NCBI GenBank assembly: GCA_944325545.1
Contig: CALVAM010000015.1
Location: 1 to 53,507, forward strand
Direction: 5' to 3'
Source: Candidatus Gastranaerophilales bacterium
GTDB taxonomy: Bacteria > Cyanobacteriota > Vampirovibrionia > Gastranaerophilales > Gastranaerophilaceae
Length of the DNA stretch: 53,507 nt
The first letter of the stretch is position 1, and the number at the start of each line of letters is the position of its first letter. A model generated the notes under the pieces. It was not told the origin of the DNA, made no database searches, and saw only the letters and a list, made by a program, of their open reading frames with translations. Of the stretch, positions 12,520 through 34,726 are shown piece by piece. A program made the position numbers and the translations under genes.

Positions 12520-12646
12520 AAAAAATATCCTTATTTCTTATATTTTAAACTTATGTAACAAAATGTAAAGATAAATTCTTTGATTGAAATTCGTAAATTT
12601 TTATTTACTTTATATATATGTAGACGATAATAAAAGGATGATTAAG

Positions 12647-13006
12647 ATGTTAACTTTAACTACTGATGATAATAAATCAACATGTTTTAAATTCATTGGA
12701 GCAGATGTTACTCCAAAGGCAACTCATTTAATTTCAGATAATACAAGTTTGATTTGTTCTGCTTCAGATGCAAGTGTTGATACTTGCAGTTTTTATTCCG
12801 GTCCTAGCGATGCAACTATTATGAATTTTGCACAAAGTTGTGAAACAAGCGGTTCGATTGCTTATACAGGAGCAGGTGAATCTTGTGGTTCTATTGCATA
12901 CGTAGGAGGCGGAGAATCTTGCGGTTCTATTGCTTCAGCATCTGTTGGATCATTCTCTTCTGGTAGTGTTTCTTCTTTCAGCGGTGGATGTAGTTATTCT
13001 TGTTAG
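12647..13006 (+). CDS. Cys/Ser/Gly-rich repeat protein of unknown function
   Basis: The 119-residue product has no signal peptide and no domain I know. It has eight cysteines, and its C-terminal half is almost entirely Gly, Ser, Ala, Cys and Tyr. Two tandem 12-residue units, GSIAYTGAGESC and GSIAYVGGGESC, are followed by a partial third unit and a C-terminal run ending CSYSC. AAAAGG lies about 9 nt before the ATG at 12647; the frame is open from 12584, but the earlier starts lack a good site. It has its own terminator and is monocistronic. It could be a structural or cell-surface protein or a peptide precursor modified at cysteine; I cannot choose. Confidence 0.7.
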   Translation: MLTLTTDDNKSTCFKFIGADVTPKATHLISDNTSLICSASDASVDTCSFYSGPSDATIMNFAQSCETSGSIAYTGAGESCGSIAYVGGGESCGSIASASVGSFSSGSVSSFSGGCSYSC

Positions 13007-29538: not shown

Positions 29539-31443
29539 TTGAAAAATCTATCGTTTTTATATAAAAATTTAATAGTTTTATTGCTTGTAATAGGGAGTTT
29601 AGGGCTTTATTCCGGTTCTGTTTGTGCTGAAGAAATCCCTAATGAAAATGAATTAGATTATATTGAAGAATCCAATTATGATAGTAGTACCGCTTATATT
29701 AATGATATTGAGATTTTAGGTTCAAATATTATACGTCCTGAGTATATTTTATCAAAATTAACCTTACAAAAGGGGAGTTTATATGATAAGGATGTTATGC
29801 AACAGGATTTAAAAACTATATATCGTATGGGTTATTTTACGGAAAGAATGAAGGCAATTCCTGTAAAAAATTCTAATGGGACAATTTCGTTAAAAATAAT
29901 AGTAGAAGAAAATATTCCTGTTACGGATTTTACAATAGAGGGTAATACTGTTGTTTCAAGTGATGAAATTATGCAGTATTTGTTGCCTTTAAAAGGAAAA
30001 CCTCAGAATATAACAGCTATAAACCAAGCTATGGAACAGATTAATCAGTGTTATTATTCAAAAGGTTATATTTTGTCAAAAATAGATTCAATTTATGATG
30101 ATCCTGACGGAACATTAAATTTGAGTATTACAGAAGGTAAAATTAATAAAATAATGATTACCGGTAATGAAAAAACAAAAGAATATGTAATTGAACGAAA
30201 TATAATGACGGAACCAGGCACTGTTTATAATGAAAATCAAGTAAAGCAAGATTTGGTTAGATTGTATTCAACTCAAGCTTTTAAGGATGTAAATAGAACA
30301 ATTGAAGTATCTGAAGAGGACCCGGATAAATTTGATGTAACTATAGAATTGAAGGAACAAAGAACGGCTTCTGTGTCGATTGGTGGGGGGTTAGATTCTG
30401 CAACAGGTGCCTTTGGGTCGGTTGGTATCTCTGATAATAACTTTAGAGGGATGAATCAAAGAGTGTCTTTAACAGGCATGGTTGGTTCGGGGATTTTAAT
30501 GAGTGATTCATCTATTAAAAGTCACATGAATTATCAAGCAGAATTAAGCTTTTTTGAACCTCATTTCTTAAATGCTGATAATTCATTAATGAGTAAGATT
30601 TATTTTAGAGATTTAGGCAGTTATCAAGTTCCTTTGGCTATAGAAAGAAGAATTGGTATTGAAGGAACAGTCGCTCATAGACTTAAGTTTAACAGAAATA
30701 TGTCTACAACATTTACATCAGGTGTAGAATATATTCATTTACAGGAAGGTGATGCAGAACGAATTGGTCAGTTATATAGAAATCACGGTCTTGACATTGC
30801 AGAAAGAGCTAAACAATTAGAGGGCGGTTTTTTCTTAAGATTGGCACCGGGTCTTGCTTATGATTCAAGGGATTCATCTGTAAATCCTAGAAATGGGGTT
30901 TTGGCTTCTGTTCGTTATGAAGAAGCGTTTGGTTTAGATGGTTTCGGAAAAACAAACGGACGCTTAACAGGTATGGCTAAAAAATATATTCCTATAGCTA
31001 AGAAATCTTCTTTGACATTTACTGGAAGAGGCGGTATAAAGGTTCACGGCGACAATATGCCTGAAGTTATGGCTTATAGATTAGGTGGTCCGTATACAAT
31101 TAGGGGTTATAAAGTAAATGGTGTCGGTACGGGTACTGCTTTTATAATGGGGTCCGCAGAACTTGCAACTCCAATTCCATTTGTGGATCGTTTAAAAGTA
31201 AATTTCTTGCAGAATTTAAGATTAACATTTTGGGTTGATGCCGGAAGAGTGTTTGATCCAACTATATCCAGCGTTATTTATGACAGACCGATTCAGGCTA
31301 TTACTGCCGGTATTGGTTTGAAAATTAATATGCCTGGAATTGGACCATTATCGGTTGACTATGGTTTCCCGCTTACAAATCCTGGTCCGAATGGTTCGCC
31401 TAGTGGTTACTTCACTTTCGGTGTTGGTGACATGATGTATTAG
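29539..31443 (+). CDS. bamA: outer membrane protein assembly factor BamA (Omp85)
   Basis: BamA inserts beta-barrel proteins into the outer membrane. The 634-residue product has a signal peptide (cleavage after CAE, about residue 31), three POTRA domains (residues 50-275) as in Cyanobacteria rather than the five of Proteobacteria, and a 16-strand barrel. The loop 6 motif IRGY is present in GGPYTIRGYKVNG. The start is TTG with GGAG upstream. Skp follows after 40 bp, the usual companion. Confidence 0.92.
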   Translation: MKNLSFLYKNLIVLLLVIGSLGLYSGSVCAEEIPNENELDYIEESNYDSSTAYINDIEILGSNIIRPEYILSKLTLQKGSLYDKDVMQQDLKTIYRMGYFTERMKAIPVKNSNGTISLKIIVEENIPVTDFTIEGNTVVSSDEIMQYLLPLKGKPQNITAINQAMEQINQCYYSKGYILSKIDSIYDDPDGTLNLSITEGKINKIMITGNEKTKEYVIERNIMTEPGTVYNENQVKQDLVRLYSTQAFKDVNRTIEVSEEDPDKFDVTIELKEQRTASVSIGGGLDSATGAFGSVGISDNNFRGMNQRVSLTGMVGSGILMSDSSIKSHMNYQAELSFFEPHFLNADNSLMSKIYFRDLGSYQVPLAIERRIGIEGTVAHRLKFNRNMSTTFTSGVEYIHLQEGDAERIGQLYRNHGLDIAERAKQLEGGFFLRLAPGLAYDSRDSSVNPRNGVLASVRYEEAFGLDGFGKTNGRLTGMAKKYIPIAKKSSLTFTGRGGIKVHGDNMPEVMAYRLGGPYTIRGYKVNGVGTGTAFIMGSAELATPIPFVDRLKVNFLQNLRLTFWVDAGRVFDPTISSVIYDRPIQAITAGIGLKINMPGIGPLSVDYGFPLTNPGPNGSPSGYFTFGVGDMMY

Positions 31444-31483
31444 AATAGTGTATAATAATTTAATAGATATCAGGAGGTTTGTT

Positions 31484-31933
31484 ATGAAAAATTTAAAATT
31501 AGGACTTATTACGTTATCAATGTTGATAACTACAGGTTTATCTTTTGCCGGTGGAGTAGGTTATATAGATTACGCTAAAGTTATTGATAATTATGATTAT
31601 GCAAAACAAGTTACTAAAGAAGTTGACGCAAAAGGCTTAGAAATGCAACAGTTTTTAGTAGATAAGGAAAAAGAATATAAAGCTTTAGATACTCCGTTAA
31701 AAAAACAAACTTTTGAAGAAAAAGTTGCTCAAGAATTTAAAACAAAAGAGGCGGCTTATGTTGCATTGAAAAATAAAAGAGAACAAGAAGTTTTTACTAA
31801 AATTAAAGATGCTGCAAAAGCTGTAATGGTTGAACAAAAGCTCGATGCAGTAATGGATGTAAGAGGTGTTTTTGTCGGCGGTGTTGATATAACTGATAGT
31901 GTTATTTCAAAGCTTAAAGGCGTTAAAAAATAA
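31484..31933 (+). CDS. skp: periplasmic chaperone Skp/OmpH-like
   Basis: Skp holds unfolded outer membrane proteins on the way to BamA. The 149-residue product has a signal peptide (cleavage after SFA, about residue 22), then a VGYIDYAKVIDNY N-terminal strand, a long charged coiled-coil hairpin (residues 35-115) and a C-terminal strand region with DAVMDVRGVFVGG. The frame opens at 31448, but AGGAGG precedes the ATG at 31484. Its stop overlaps the next start by one base (TAATG). Confidence 0.88.
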   Translation: MKNLKLGLITLSMLITTGLSFAGGVGYIDYAKVIDNYDYAKQVTKEVDAKGLEMQQFLVDKEKEYKALDTPLKKQTFEEKVAQEFKTKEAAYVALKNKREQEVFTKIKDAAKAVMVEQKLDAVMDVRGVFVGGVDITDSVISKLKGVKK

Positions 31934-33264
31934 TGAAAATTATTGATTTAATAGAAAAAAAGAAAAAAGGAAAAACTCATACAAAAGAAGAAATTAAATA
32001 CTTGATACAGGCTTTTGTGGAAGGAACTGTGGTCGATTCTCAAATATCAGCTTGGTTAATGGCTGTTACTCTAAATGGATTGACAGAATTAGAAACTGCT
32101 TTTTTAACAGAAGCTTTAGCTTATTCAGGTAAGTTTATTGATTTTGAAGAATTAAAGGATTCTATTGTTGATAAACATTCTACTGGTGGAGTTGGGGATA
32201 AAGTTACAATAACTTTAATTCCTTTACTTGCTGCTGCAGGTGTTCCAATTGCAAAAATATCTGACAGAGGAATTGGGCATGCTGCCGGTACTGTTGATAA
32301 ATTAGAGGCTATTCCCGGATTTAATTCTGTTTTATCAATTGACAATATAATTTCAATGGTAAAGGAACATAATGCTGTAATTGCTTCGCAAGATGAAAAT
32401 TTAGCTCCAGCTGATAAAAAATTACAAGCTTTGAGAAATTTAACAGCTACGACTGATAATATTTCATTGATAGCATCCTCAATTTTGTCTAAAAAGTTTG
32501 CATCAGGTGCCAGTAATATTGTTTTAGATGTAAAGTATGGGTTAGGTGCTTTTATGAAAACTCCTGATGAGGCTGTTTGTTTATCCAGAATGATGGTTAA
32601 TATTGGAAAAATTTTAAATAAAAAAATATTAGCAATCGTTACTTCTATGGATGAACCTTTAGGGAGAGCTATTGGTAATTCTATAGAAGTAATTGAGTCA
32701 ATGGAATTTCTTAAAGGAAACATTAAGTCAGGAGATTTGGCTGAACTTACTTTTTCTATTGCAAAAATTATATTAATCAATTTGGGTCTTTATGATAATA
32801 AGAAGGAAGCAGAAATATTTTTAAAAAATTTAATTGATTCAGGAAAAGCAATTGAAAAATGTAGAGAATTAATGGCTGCACAAGGTGGAAATTCAGAAGT
32901 CGTAGATAATTATGATAAGTTTGATTTACCTCAGTTTAAAATTGAGTGTGAATCAAAAAAGAGTGGTTATGTGCAAAAAATAAATGCTTTTAATATTGCG
33001 AAAGCTTCGAAGATATTAGGAGCAAGTAGAGAAAATTCGACAGATAAAATAGATTGTAGCGTAGGAATTTTTCTTAATAAAAAAAGCGGAGAATATGTTG
33101 ATAAAGGTGAGATACTTTATACAATATATTCAAATGATGAAGACAAAACAAGAGTTGCACAAAAAATCTGTGATAAAGCCTTCTCTATTAATGATACTAA
33201 ACCAATTCATAATAATTTGATTTATAAAGTTATAAAAACAGAAGATGAGGATGATGATGTTTAA
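31933..33264 (+). CDS. pdp: pyrimidine-nucleoside phosphorylase
   Basis: This enzyme cleaves thymidine or uridine with phosphate, feeding pyrimidine salvage. The 443-residue product has the signature DKHSTGGVGDKVTI, followed by ISDRGIGHAAGTVDKLE, and the SQDENLAPADKKL motif. The length fits thymidine/pyrimidine phosphorylases of the DeoA/Pdp group; the sequence does not decide between the two. It overlaps skp by one base upstream and the FlhA-like gene by 8 bp downstream, so it is in the same transcript as bamA-skp. Confidence 0.92.
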   Translation: MKIIDLIEKKKKGKTHTKEEIKYLIQAFVEGTVVDSQISAWLMAVTLNGLTELETAFLTEALAYSGKFIDFEELKDSIVDKHSTGGVGDKVTITLIPLLAAAGVPIAKISDRGIGHAAGTVDKLEAIPGFNSVLSIDNIISMVKEHNAVIASQDENLAPADKKLQALRNLTATTDNISLIASSILSKKFASGASNIVLDVKYGLGAFMKTPDEAVCLSRMMVNIGKILNKKILAIVTSMDEPLGRAIGNSIEVIESMEFLKGNIKSGDLAELTFSIAKIILINLGLYDNKKEAEIFLKNLIDSGKAIEKCRELMAAQGGNSEVVDNYDKFDLPQFKIECESKKSGYVQKINAFNIAKASKILGASRENSTDKIDCSVGIFLNKKSGEYVDKGEILYTIYSNDEDKTRVAQKICDKAFSINDTKPIHNNLIYKVIKTEDEDDDV

Positions 33265-34726
33265 TAAAAAAATGCAATATGTTATTAAATCTGTACCTAC
33301 TGATGATAAACAAGCTTTGGAAAATTTATTAAATGAAATGTCTGATGCCGGTTGGGATTTGTATACAATGCATGAAGTTGAAACAGATTCCTCTTTTGAT
33401 TTCAATTGTATATTTATGAGAGAAAAACAAGAAGAAGATTCTACGGATTTAGATGATATTGTAAATATAACAAGTTTTAAGTATAGAATGGAAAAAATGT
33501 TAGCAGCACCTTCCAGTCCATATGCTTCTTGTAAAGAAATTCAATTGAAGATTTCTAATCAAAAGGAAAGAATAAAGAAAATAAAATCACAGTTAGAAAA
33601 TGAAAATTTATCTCCTGATAAAAAAAATCAGTTGAATAATCAAATGTCTGATGAGTTGAAGCAATTATCAGTATTAAAACAACAATTAATTAATGAAATA
33701 TCTCCAGAGGCTATGTATTCTAATTTAAAAGAAGAAAAGTTTGTTGTTAATTTGTCAGAGGAAATTTTAGAAGTAATCTCAATGGAGGCTTCTGATGACA
33801 ATTTGCTAGCTGAAACAGTTAAAGTAAGACAAAATTTGGCAGAAACTTTAGGGTATGTTATACCTCATATTCATTTTCATAATAGTGATGAACTTATGCA
33901 GAATGAATTTTGTATAAAAATACATGATATAGAAGTTTTTAGATCTATTGTATTTCCTGGGTATTTAGCTTTCTATAAGGATGAAATAAAAGGTTATAAA
34001 TTGACAGATGAAGATTATGTTGTTGAGGATTGTATCACAGGTAAAAAACTTGTGTGGATATCAAGTGAGAAAGTTAAAGATTTTTGGGCTACAGGGTTAA
34101 GTGCTGCAGAGTATATTGCAAAAGCAATTGAGTATGTTTCTGTGAAAGAAGTTTCGGATATAATGGATTATAATGACGTTAATAAGTATGTTGAAAAAGT
34201 TATAGAAACAAATTCTTTCTTAGTTGATAATATTATTCCTGATTTTATTACGGCATCTGATTTGAAATATTTGTTAACTTGTTTAATTAGAGAAAATGTT
34301 TCTGTAAAAAATATAGTTTATATTTTCGAAAAAATAAATGATTACGCTAATGAACCAACAAAAGAAGATTTGCTAGATAAGGTAAGATTAGCTTTATCAA
34401 AACATATTATTAAAGATCTAGCAGTGGATGGGGATTTAAGGGTTTTAGAATTAAGTGATGCGATATTAGATAAAGTTTATTCTTTTTTTAAAGAAGACGA
34501 GAATGAAATGATAGTTAGAATTGAGGCTGCTGAAGTAGAAGATATAGCTTCAAAAATCTTAAAATTTATGAAAACAAAAAAAATTCAGAAACCCATAATA
34601 GTAGTTCCCGTTGATATAAGACATATGGTTTTTGTTATATTATCGGAATTTATTCCAAATATAAATGTTCTTGCTTATGAAGAGCTTGTAAGTAGTGCAA
34701 ATATTAAGTTTATAGGAAAAATTTAA
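33257..34726 (+). CDS. soluble FlhA cytoplasmic-domain protein with N-terminal DUF4177-like domain
   Basis: The 489-residue product has an N-terminal DUF4177-like domain (residues 6-56, with LLNEMSDAGWDLYTM), a charged coiled-coil linker (75-150) and then the full FlhA/LcrD (FHIPEP) cytoplasmic domain (about 162-489). Motifs: RQNLAETLGYVIPHIHFHNS (191-210), the NEFCIKIHDIEVFR strand, VDNIIPDFITASDLKYLLTC (323-342) with LIRENVSVKNIVYIFEKIND after it, and the end PIIVVPVDIRHMVFVI...NINVLAYEEL. All eight membrane segments of FlhA are missing. No flagellar or type III secretion gene is in the window. The start overlaps pdp; GAGG lies before the ATG at 33257. Confidence 0.85.
   Translation: MFNKKMQYVIKSVPTDDKQALENLLNEMSDAGWDLYTMHEVETDSSFDFNCIFMREKQEEDSTDLDDIVNITSFKYRMEKMLAAPSSPYASCKEIQLKISNQKERIKKIKSQLENENLSPDKKNQLNNQMSDELKQLSVLKQQLINEISPEAMYSNLKEEKFVVNLSEEILEVISMEASDDNLLAETVKVRQNLAETLGYVIPHIHFHNSDELMQNEFCIKIHDIEVFRSIVFPGYLAFYKDEIKGYKLTDEDYVVEDCITGKKLVWISSEKVKDFWATGLSAAEYIAKAIEYVSVKEVSDIMDYNDVNKYVEKVIETNSFLVDNIIPDFITASDLKYLLTCLIRENVSVKNIVYIFEKINDYANEPTKEDLLDKVRLALSKHIIKDLAVDGDLRVLELSDAILDKVYSFFKEDENEMIVRIEAAEVEDIASKILKFMKTKKIQKPIIVVPVDIRHMVFVILSEFIPNINVLAYEELVSSANIKFIGKI

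Follow-up and report, generated by a model that had tools for sequence, protein, structure and literature searches.

The DNA analysed here (the window) is a stretch of 53,507 nucleotides from contig CALVAM010000015.1 of a Candidatus Gastranaerophilales genome (GCA_944325545.1), and coordinates without a locus prefix are positions in it. On its forward strand lies a gene whose product is a soluble protein: behind an N-terminal domain and a coiled-coil hairpin it has the whole cytoplasmic domain of the export gate protein FlhA (FlhA-C). We compared this protein with the two full-length FlhA proteins of the same genome, the flagellar-type FlhA1 and FlhA2, which belongs to a second, flagellum-derived type III secretion (T3S) machine.

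Architecture of the soluble FlhA-C protein

The gene and its parts are as follows.

33257–34726, + strand: soluble FlhA-C protein, 489 amino acids (aa), stop codon included, start ATG at 33257 (open reading frame [ORF] list and Pfam)
33257–33448, + strand: N-terminal beta-alpha-beta-beta domain, residues 1–64, weakly DUF4177-like (AlphaFold2)
33464–33700, + strand: conserved FK..MEK segment and coiled-coil hairpin, residues 70–148 (AlphaFold2 helices, alignment)
33701–33736, + strand: linker motif S-P-x-x-M-Y, residues 149–160, homologous to the FlhA2 linker NP.KMYE (conservation of P150 and M153)
33737–33958, + strand: first part of FlhA-C domain D1, residues 161–234, with S-E-E in place of the GYXLI hinge (alignment to E. 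coli FlhA)
33959–34102, + strand: FlhA-C D2, residues 235–282, with T/S at the position of dimple residue F459 (alignment to E. coli FlhA)
34103–34162, + strand: second part of FlhA-C D1, residues 283–302, with a basic residue at the T490 position (alignment to E. coli FlhA)
34163–34399, + strand: FlhA-C D3, residues 303–381, the best conserved, with ring-contact positions K351 and D307; their partners D301 and K382 flank it
34400–34723, + strand: FlhA-C D4, residues 382–489, strongly diverged from FlhA2 (per-domain identity)

The domain boundaries follow those of Salmonella FlhA. They are approximate, and agree with those given for YscV (PMC9163089).

The reading frame spans 33245–34726 (+), and an alignment of 42 diverged orthologues identified 33257 as the conserved start, where the gene overlaps the upstream pdp by 8 bases (pdp stop codon at 33262–33264). 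The cytoplasmic half of Pfam FHIPEP (profile positions 321–655) matched residues 129–480 with 158.5 bits (cut-off 29.1) and an E of 3.3e-46, and the Pfam search found profile positions 1–320, the membrane half, to be absent. No membrane segment was found in the protein. Its highest 19-residue hydropathy, at residue 448 within D4 of the model, was 1.75, against 2.9 over long stretches of FlhA1 and FlhA2. AlphaFold2 on 36 orthologues gave a mean predicted local distance difference test score (pLDDT) of 80, with helices at residues 71–82, 88–113 and 120–148; the latter two are the arms of the coiled-coil hairpin (88–148). Residues 60–85 are poorly ordered, and the FlhA-C fold begins past residue 160. 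Against the Vibrio FlhA nonamer (7amy), the predicted fold gave a VIA Z of 30.1 over residues 141–489, with a root-mean-square deviation of 4.9 Å. A first-pass annotation, made from the sequence letters, had described a soluble FlhA-C lacking a membrane segment, and the profile match, the hydropathy and the predicted fold all agree with it. It was also right that a different N-terminus and a coiled coil precede FlhA-C, and that such a protein is not a normal export part.

The same annotation had called the N-terminus DUF4177-like. A domain is indeed predicted there: residues 6–56 form a beta-alpha-beta-beta fold, whose invariant columns are G32, W33, L35, Y36, C51, I52 and F53. The label, however, is weakly supported. 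Pfam DUF4177 (PF13783) matched 19 of the 36 orthologues with a best E of 0.02, below the Pfam cut-off, and gave no match for the window protein itself in the Pfam search. When the domain was folded alone, a PDB search returned no significant match (best Foldseek E 0.08).

The PHROGs family phrog_12657 (579 positions, function unknown) matched the FlhA-C part with an E of 3.4e-20, a relative of FlhA among viral proteins.

Occurrence, selection and descent

Gene sets were assessed through family searches and reading of loci. An orthologue of the N-terminal part was present in 192 of 193 Gastranaerophilales genomes. None turned up in 96 genomes that represent other orders of the same class; these orders have one or two full-length FlhA and no soluble gene. 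The sole exception within Gastranaerophilales, G261 (1.5 Mb, 98% complete), has FlhA2, FliP2 and FlhB2. Of 56 genomes of the order in a separate set, 54 carry the soluble gene; G012 and G053, which lack it, are 80–83% complete. It co-occurs with both FlhA1 and FlhA2 in the deep-branching, flagellated families, and no genome was found that carries it without parts of the second machine.

The soluble gene is under strong purifying selection. Its ratio of nonsynonymous to synonymous substitution rates (dN/dS) was 0.034–0.041 in comparisons with two relatives that are about 93% identical, with the minimum in the N-terminal domain and hairpin in the comparison with one of them, and many columns are invariant over 36 sequences, down to 47% identity.

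The soluble proteins formed a single clade in the tree (support 100/100). The window protein is nearer FlhA2 than FlhA1 (126 vs 63 bits; 25% vs 20% identity). Linker residues P150 and M153, conserved in 41 and 38 of 42 soluble proteins, respectively, are each found in 31 of 31 FlhA2 proteins and not in FlhA1. These comparisons suggest that the soluble family likely descends from FlhA2, in a tree whose root is not resolved and where long branches meet. The window protein scored 139 bits with the FlhA equivalog TIGR01398 (cut-off 772) and 92.8 bits with the SctV equivalog TIGR01399 (cut-off 692), below both cut-offs.

Two export machines in the source genome

The source genome has two full-length FlhA genes, two FliP, two FlhB, two type III ATPases, and nine flagellin-domain genes. 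FlhA1 lies on contig C24 in the order fliP-fliQ-fliR-flhB-flhA and scored 854 bits, above the FlhA equivalog cut-off. FlhA2 is found on C19 after fliE, fliF, a gene for a protein in the fliG position, and fliH; its score was 697 with the FlhA equivalog (cut-off 772) and 586 with the SctV equivalog (cut-off 692). A further locus of the second machine, on C5, contains a SpoA-type ring protein, FliO, FliP2, FliQ2, and FliR2, and FlhB2 adjoins a FliA-like sigma factor on C9. FlhB2 did not reach the SctU equivalog cut-off (311 vs 358). The fliG-position protein (L025:6172-7209, between fliF2 and fliH2) had no family match in Pfam or NCBIfam.

The first-pass annotation had seen no flagellar gene in the window, which the ORF list does not contradict; the two sets lie elsewhere in the genome. 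Its proposal that the ring domain was re-used after loss of flagella is not supported by this gene content: one set of flhB, fliP, fliQ and fliR lies beside FlhA1, and a second accompanies FlhA2. Nor is the soluble gene half of a split FlhA, as neither of the full-length FlhA genes is broken.

In relatives, FliJ-like, FliK-like, and FlgE/F/G-like rod proteins were found near FlhB2 or FlhA2, the FliJ, FliK and rod C-terminal matches being below the Pfam cut-offs. Examples of rod, FliK-like and FliJ-like proteins by second-machine genes lie at L052:9519-10943 and L119:14743-16926, the latter in a genome without flagellin. A FliA/WhiG-like sigma factor stands beside FlhB2 at L118:7594-8292, L119:9830-10492 and L120:8191-8856, and is conserved in a non-flagellated genome too.

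We then considered 209 genomes of the order, each at least 95% complete, with FlhA1 and FliP1 counted by hand from the match lists. Flagellar-type FlhA1 was listed in 81 and flagellar-type FliP1 in 81, and the two sets overlap almost fully. FlhA1 was not listed in the other 128, and nearly all of these retain the second machine, with FlhA2 and FliP2, and the soluble gene. This indicates that the soluble gene is independent of the flagellum. G248 and G143 are among the few genomes with FlhA2 missing or broken, which look like assembly gaps. In 36 non-flagellated genomes tested further, one FlhB was found in all 36 and one T3S ATPase in 35; flagellin (Flagellin_N) was not found in 35 of these 36 genomes having only the second machine. 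Our analysis showed that a second, flagellum-derived T3S machine is near-universal in Gastranaerophilales and is retained even by non-flagellated species. Soo et al. (2014; PMC4040986) reported a 'subset of flagella genes' in non-motile Gastranaerophilales, for which this machine probably accounts.

Residues retained and lost in the soluble family

The inter-subunit contacts of the YscV ring include the D511-R592 pair, R560, and E517 (numbering of PMC9163089). In the soluble family the D511 position is acidic in 39 of 42 proteins and the R592 position basic in 40; the R560 position is basic in all 42 and the E517 position acidic in 38. None of the other contacts on the list is kept among the soluble proteins, and most of them are missing from FlhA1 and FlhA2 as well.

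The chaperone-binding dimple of Salmonella FlhA is formed by D456, F459, and T490 (PMC8166844). D456 is retained in 41 of 42 soluble proteins, F459 is replaced by T, S or N, and T490 is mostly basic (R/K). G368, which belongs to the GYXLI hinge of FlhA (PMC9431611), is replaced by S in 40 of 42. Judged by alignment, the soluble protein thus keeps the putative ring-contact residues together with the FlhA2 linker motif, whereas the chaperone dimple and the hinge GYXLI are lost. The suggestion that it serves as a substrate or chaperone docking scaffold is plausible, although the chaperone dimple itself is altered.

Identity between the soluble protein and FlhA2 was 34% in D1, 18% in D2, 37% in D3, and 18% in D4. 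Between FlhA1 and FlhA2, taken as a control, it was 33%, 19%, 32%, and 33%, respectively. Therefore D4 alone is unusual in the soluble family; a divergence of D2 specific to this family was rejected, as the control was equally low there.

Gene neighbourhood and other FlhA-C proteins

Three genes precede the soluble gene on the same strand (ORF list, 29539–33264).

29539–31443, + strand: bamA
31448–31933, + strand: skp
31933–33264, + strand: pdp

In the bacterium's own family, bamA-skp is common ahead of the soluble gene, with pdp, a 256-aa gene of uridine-phosphorylase type (assigned by eye), or no gene in between. The exchange of pdp for the 256-aa gene at the same operon position was seen in many genera (L098–L109) and is a possible non-orthologous swap. 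The bamA-skp neighbourhood was not seen in other families of the order whose loci were read, so a tie to an envelope-biogenesis operon, which the first-pass annotation had raised, holds in much of this family and is not the core of the function. A scan for sigma-70 promoters and terminators gave promoter-like sites at shuffle level and no terminator. Elsewhere in the window, a small ORF of 140 aa (12584–13006) contains repeated GESCGSIAYVGG-type units rich in Ser, Gly, and Cys.

Some relatives, in several genera, have mini FlhA-C proteins of about 210–285 aa, in which D1 is fused to D3 without D2 or D4. In others, the fliG-position domain is N-terminal to FlhA-C; this is the N-terminal domain of the fliG-position protein L025:6172-7209, reused in the fusions. 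The loci are as follows.

L251:1567-2424, L255:848-1489, L256:2227-3084, L257:2106-2903: mini FlhA-C proteins
L258, L261, L263, L265–L270: more mini FlhA-C proteins
L216:3197-6184 (genome G011, contig C17): 995-aa fusion of the fliG-position domain, a transmembrane stretch, FlhA-C, a FliI-type ATPase domain, and T3SS_ATPase_C
L218, L252, L253, L254, L262: fusions related to the 995-aa protein

These minis and fusions show that FlhA-C is used as a detachable module in this order, tied to second-machine parts. Contamination was considered as the cause of more than three FHIPEP proteins per genome and rejected: several were fusions and minis, and some were contig fragments of full-length FlhA.

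Possible role of the soluble protein

On balance, we lean towards placing the soluble protein in the export platform of the second, flagellum-derived T3S machine, as one of its cytosolic subunits. That it belongs to the cytosolic platform of this machine is well supported and, in our judgement, probable. Its co-assembly with the FlhA2 ring is a more tentative proposal. The soluble protein would pack into or stack on the FlhA2 cytoplasmic ring through the retained linker, D1, and D3 contacts, and in place of the membrane anchor, the N-terminal domain and hairpin would give it an additional arm for docking. The altered dimple and D4 might then change the platform's choice of chaperone-substrate complexes (or FliJ-like stalk), or the timing of their acceptance.

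Several points weigh against this assignment. In the loci read, the soluble gene lay apart from the genes of the second machine. G261 keeps FlhA2, FliP2, and FlhB2 at 98% completeness without the soluble gene, so the protein is not strictly required, and co-occurrence within the order is weak in power because gene and machine are both near-universal there. The ring-contact residues may be conserved for folding, and the protein may be a homo-oligomer, part of a hetero-ring or a monomer.

A heteromeric docking ring, made of FlhA2, the soluble subunit and, in some lineages, swappable FlhA-C modules (minis and fusions), is a speculative possibility. To our knowledge, known T3S systems are described with a uniform FlhA or SctV ring of nine. 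If the heteromeric ring were true, export selectivity would come from exchanging ring subunits instead of from chaperones that bind a uniform nonamer.

It is unlikely, though worth considering, that the soluble protein forms a homo-oligomeric ring of its own and stays out of the FlhA2 ring. It would then carry or sort chaperone-substrate pairs in the cytosol ahead of FlhA2. The ring-contact positions are retained, the full D1–D4 fold is predicted, the coiled-coil arm is missing in FlhA2, and the changed dimple suggests different clients; the loss of the hydrophobic dimple and the divergence of D4, however, speak against the known docking mode.

Exaptation of the ring domain outside type III export, tied to outer-membrane and envelope biogenesis through the bamA-skp operon, seems rather improbable to us. 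It would fit the upstream bamA-skp in much of the family and a window without a type III gene, but not the other families read, where this neighbourhood was not found, nor the distribution of the gene, nested within that of the second T3S machine, nor the sibling FlhA-C proteins fused to T3S parts.

We see very little chance that the protein regulates the flagellar export gate FlhA1 or flagellar gene expression: the gene is present in flagellated members, but its retention in nearly all 128 genomes without listed FlhA1 and in flagellin-less genomes contradicts this, and FlhA2 is the closer relative. A decaying, functionless duplicate, which fast divergence from FlhA2 and a long stem in the tree might suggest, is contradicted by purifying selection (dN/dS about 0.034, invariant columns, near-universal presence in the order) and deserves practically no credence.

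A soluble FlhA-C, conserved alongside its full-length paralogue, would amount to a dissection of the ring made by nature. With it one can test which functions of the ring depend on membrane anchoring and which on the chaperone dimple.

Comparison with known systems

The searches of open-access papers turned up no account of a soluble paralogue of FlhA-C type and none of a second T3S machine for this order, subscription papers being outside the search. The soluble protein resembles FlhA-C (Salmonella 3A5I, Vibrio nonamer 7AMY) in its predicted four-domain fold (Z 29–30), its ring-contact positions, and its linker-like segment. Unlike FlhA, it has no membrane half and has a new N-terminal domain and coiled coil; unlike FlhA-C, it lacks dimple residues F459 and T490 and the GYXLI hinge, its D4 has diverged, and it scores well under the equivalog cut-off. 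With injectisome SctV-C (YscV 7ALW/7QIJ, MxiA 4A5P) it shares the fold and the contact pair D511-R592. It differs from SctV in being soluble and encoded by a separate gene. FlhA2 of the same genome reaches the equivalog cut-off of neither FlhA nor SctV.

FlhX of Campylobacterota is a soluble relative of the FlhB cytoplasmic domain. It is listed among flagellar secretion components (PMC9321776). In both cases the cytoplasmic half of an export-gate protein stands free beside the full-length one. However, FlhX comes from FlhB and serves the flagellum, whereas the soluble FlhA-C comes from FlhA and follows the second, non-flagellar machine.

Members of this order are common in animal guts, and nearly all carry the second machine. 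In non-motile gut Melainabacteria, the incomplete sets of flagellar genes can be re-read, at least largely, as this export machine. The genes of the Soo et al. subset (PMC4040986) are probably the same; the difference is that here they form a second paralogous set, present beside a true flagellum and retained when the flagellum is lost.
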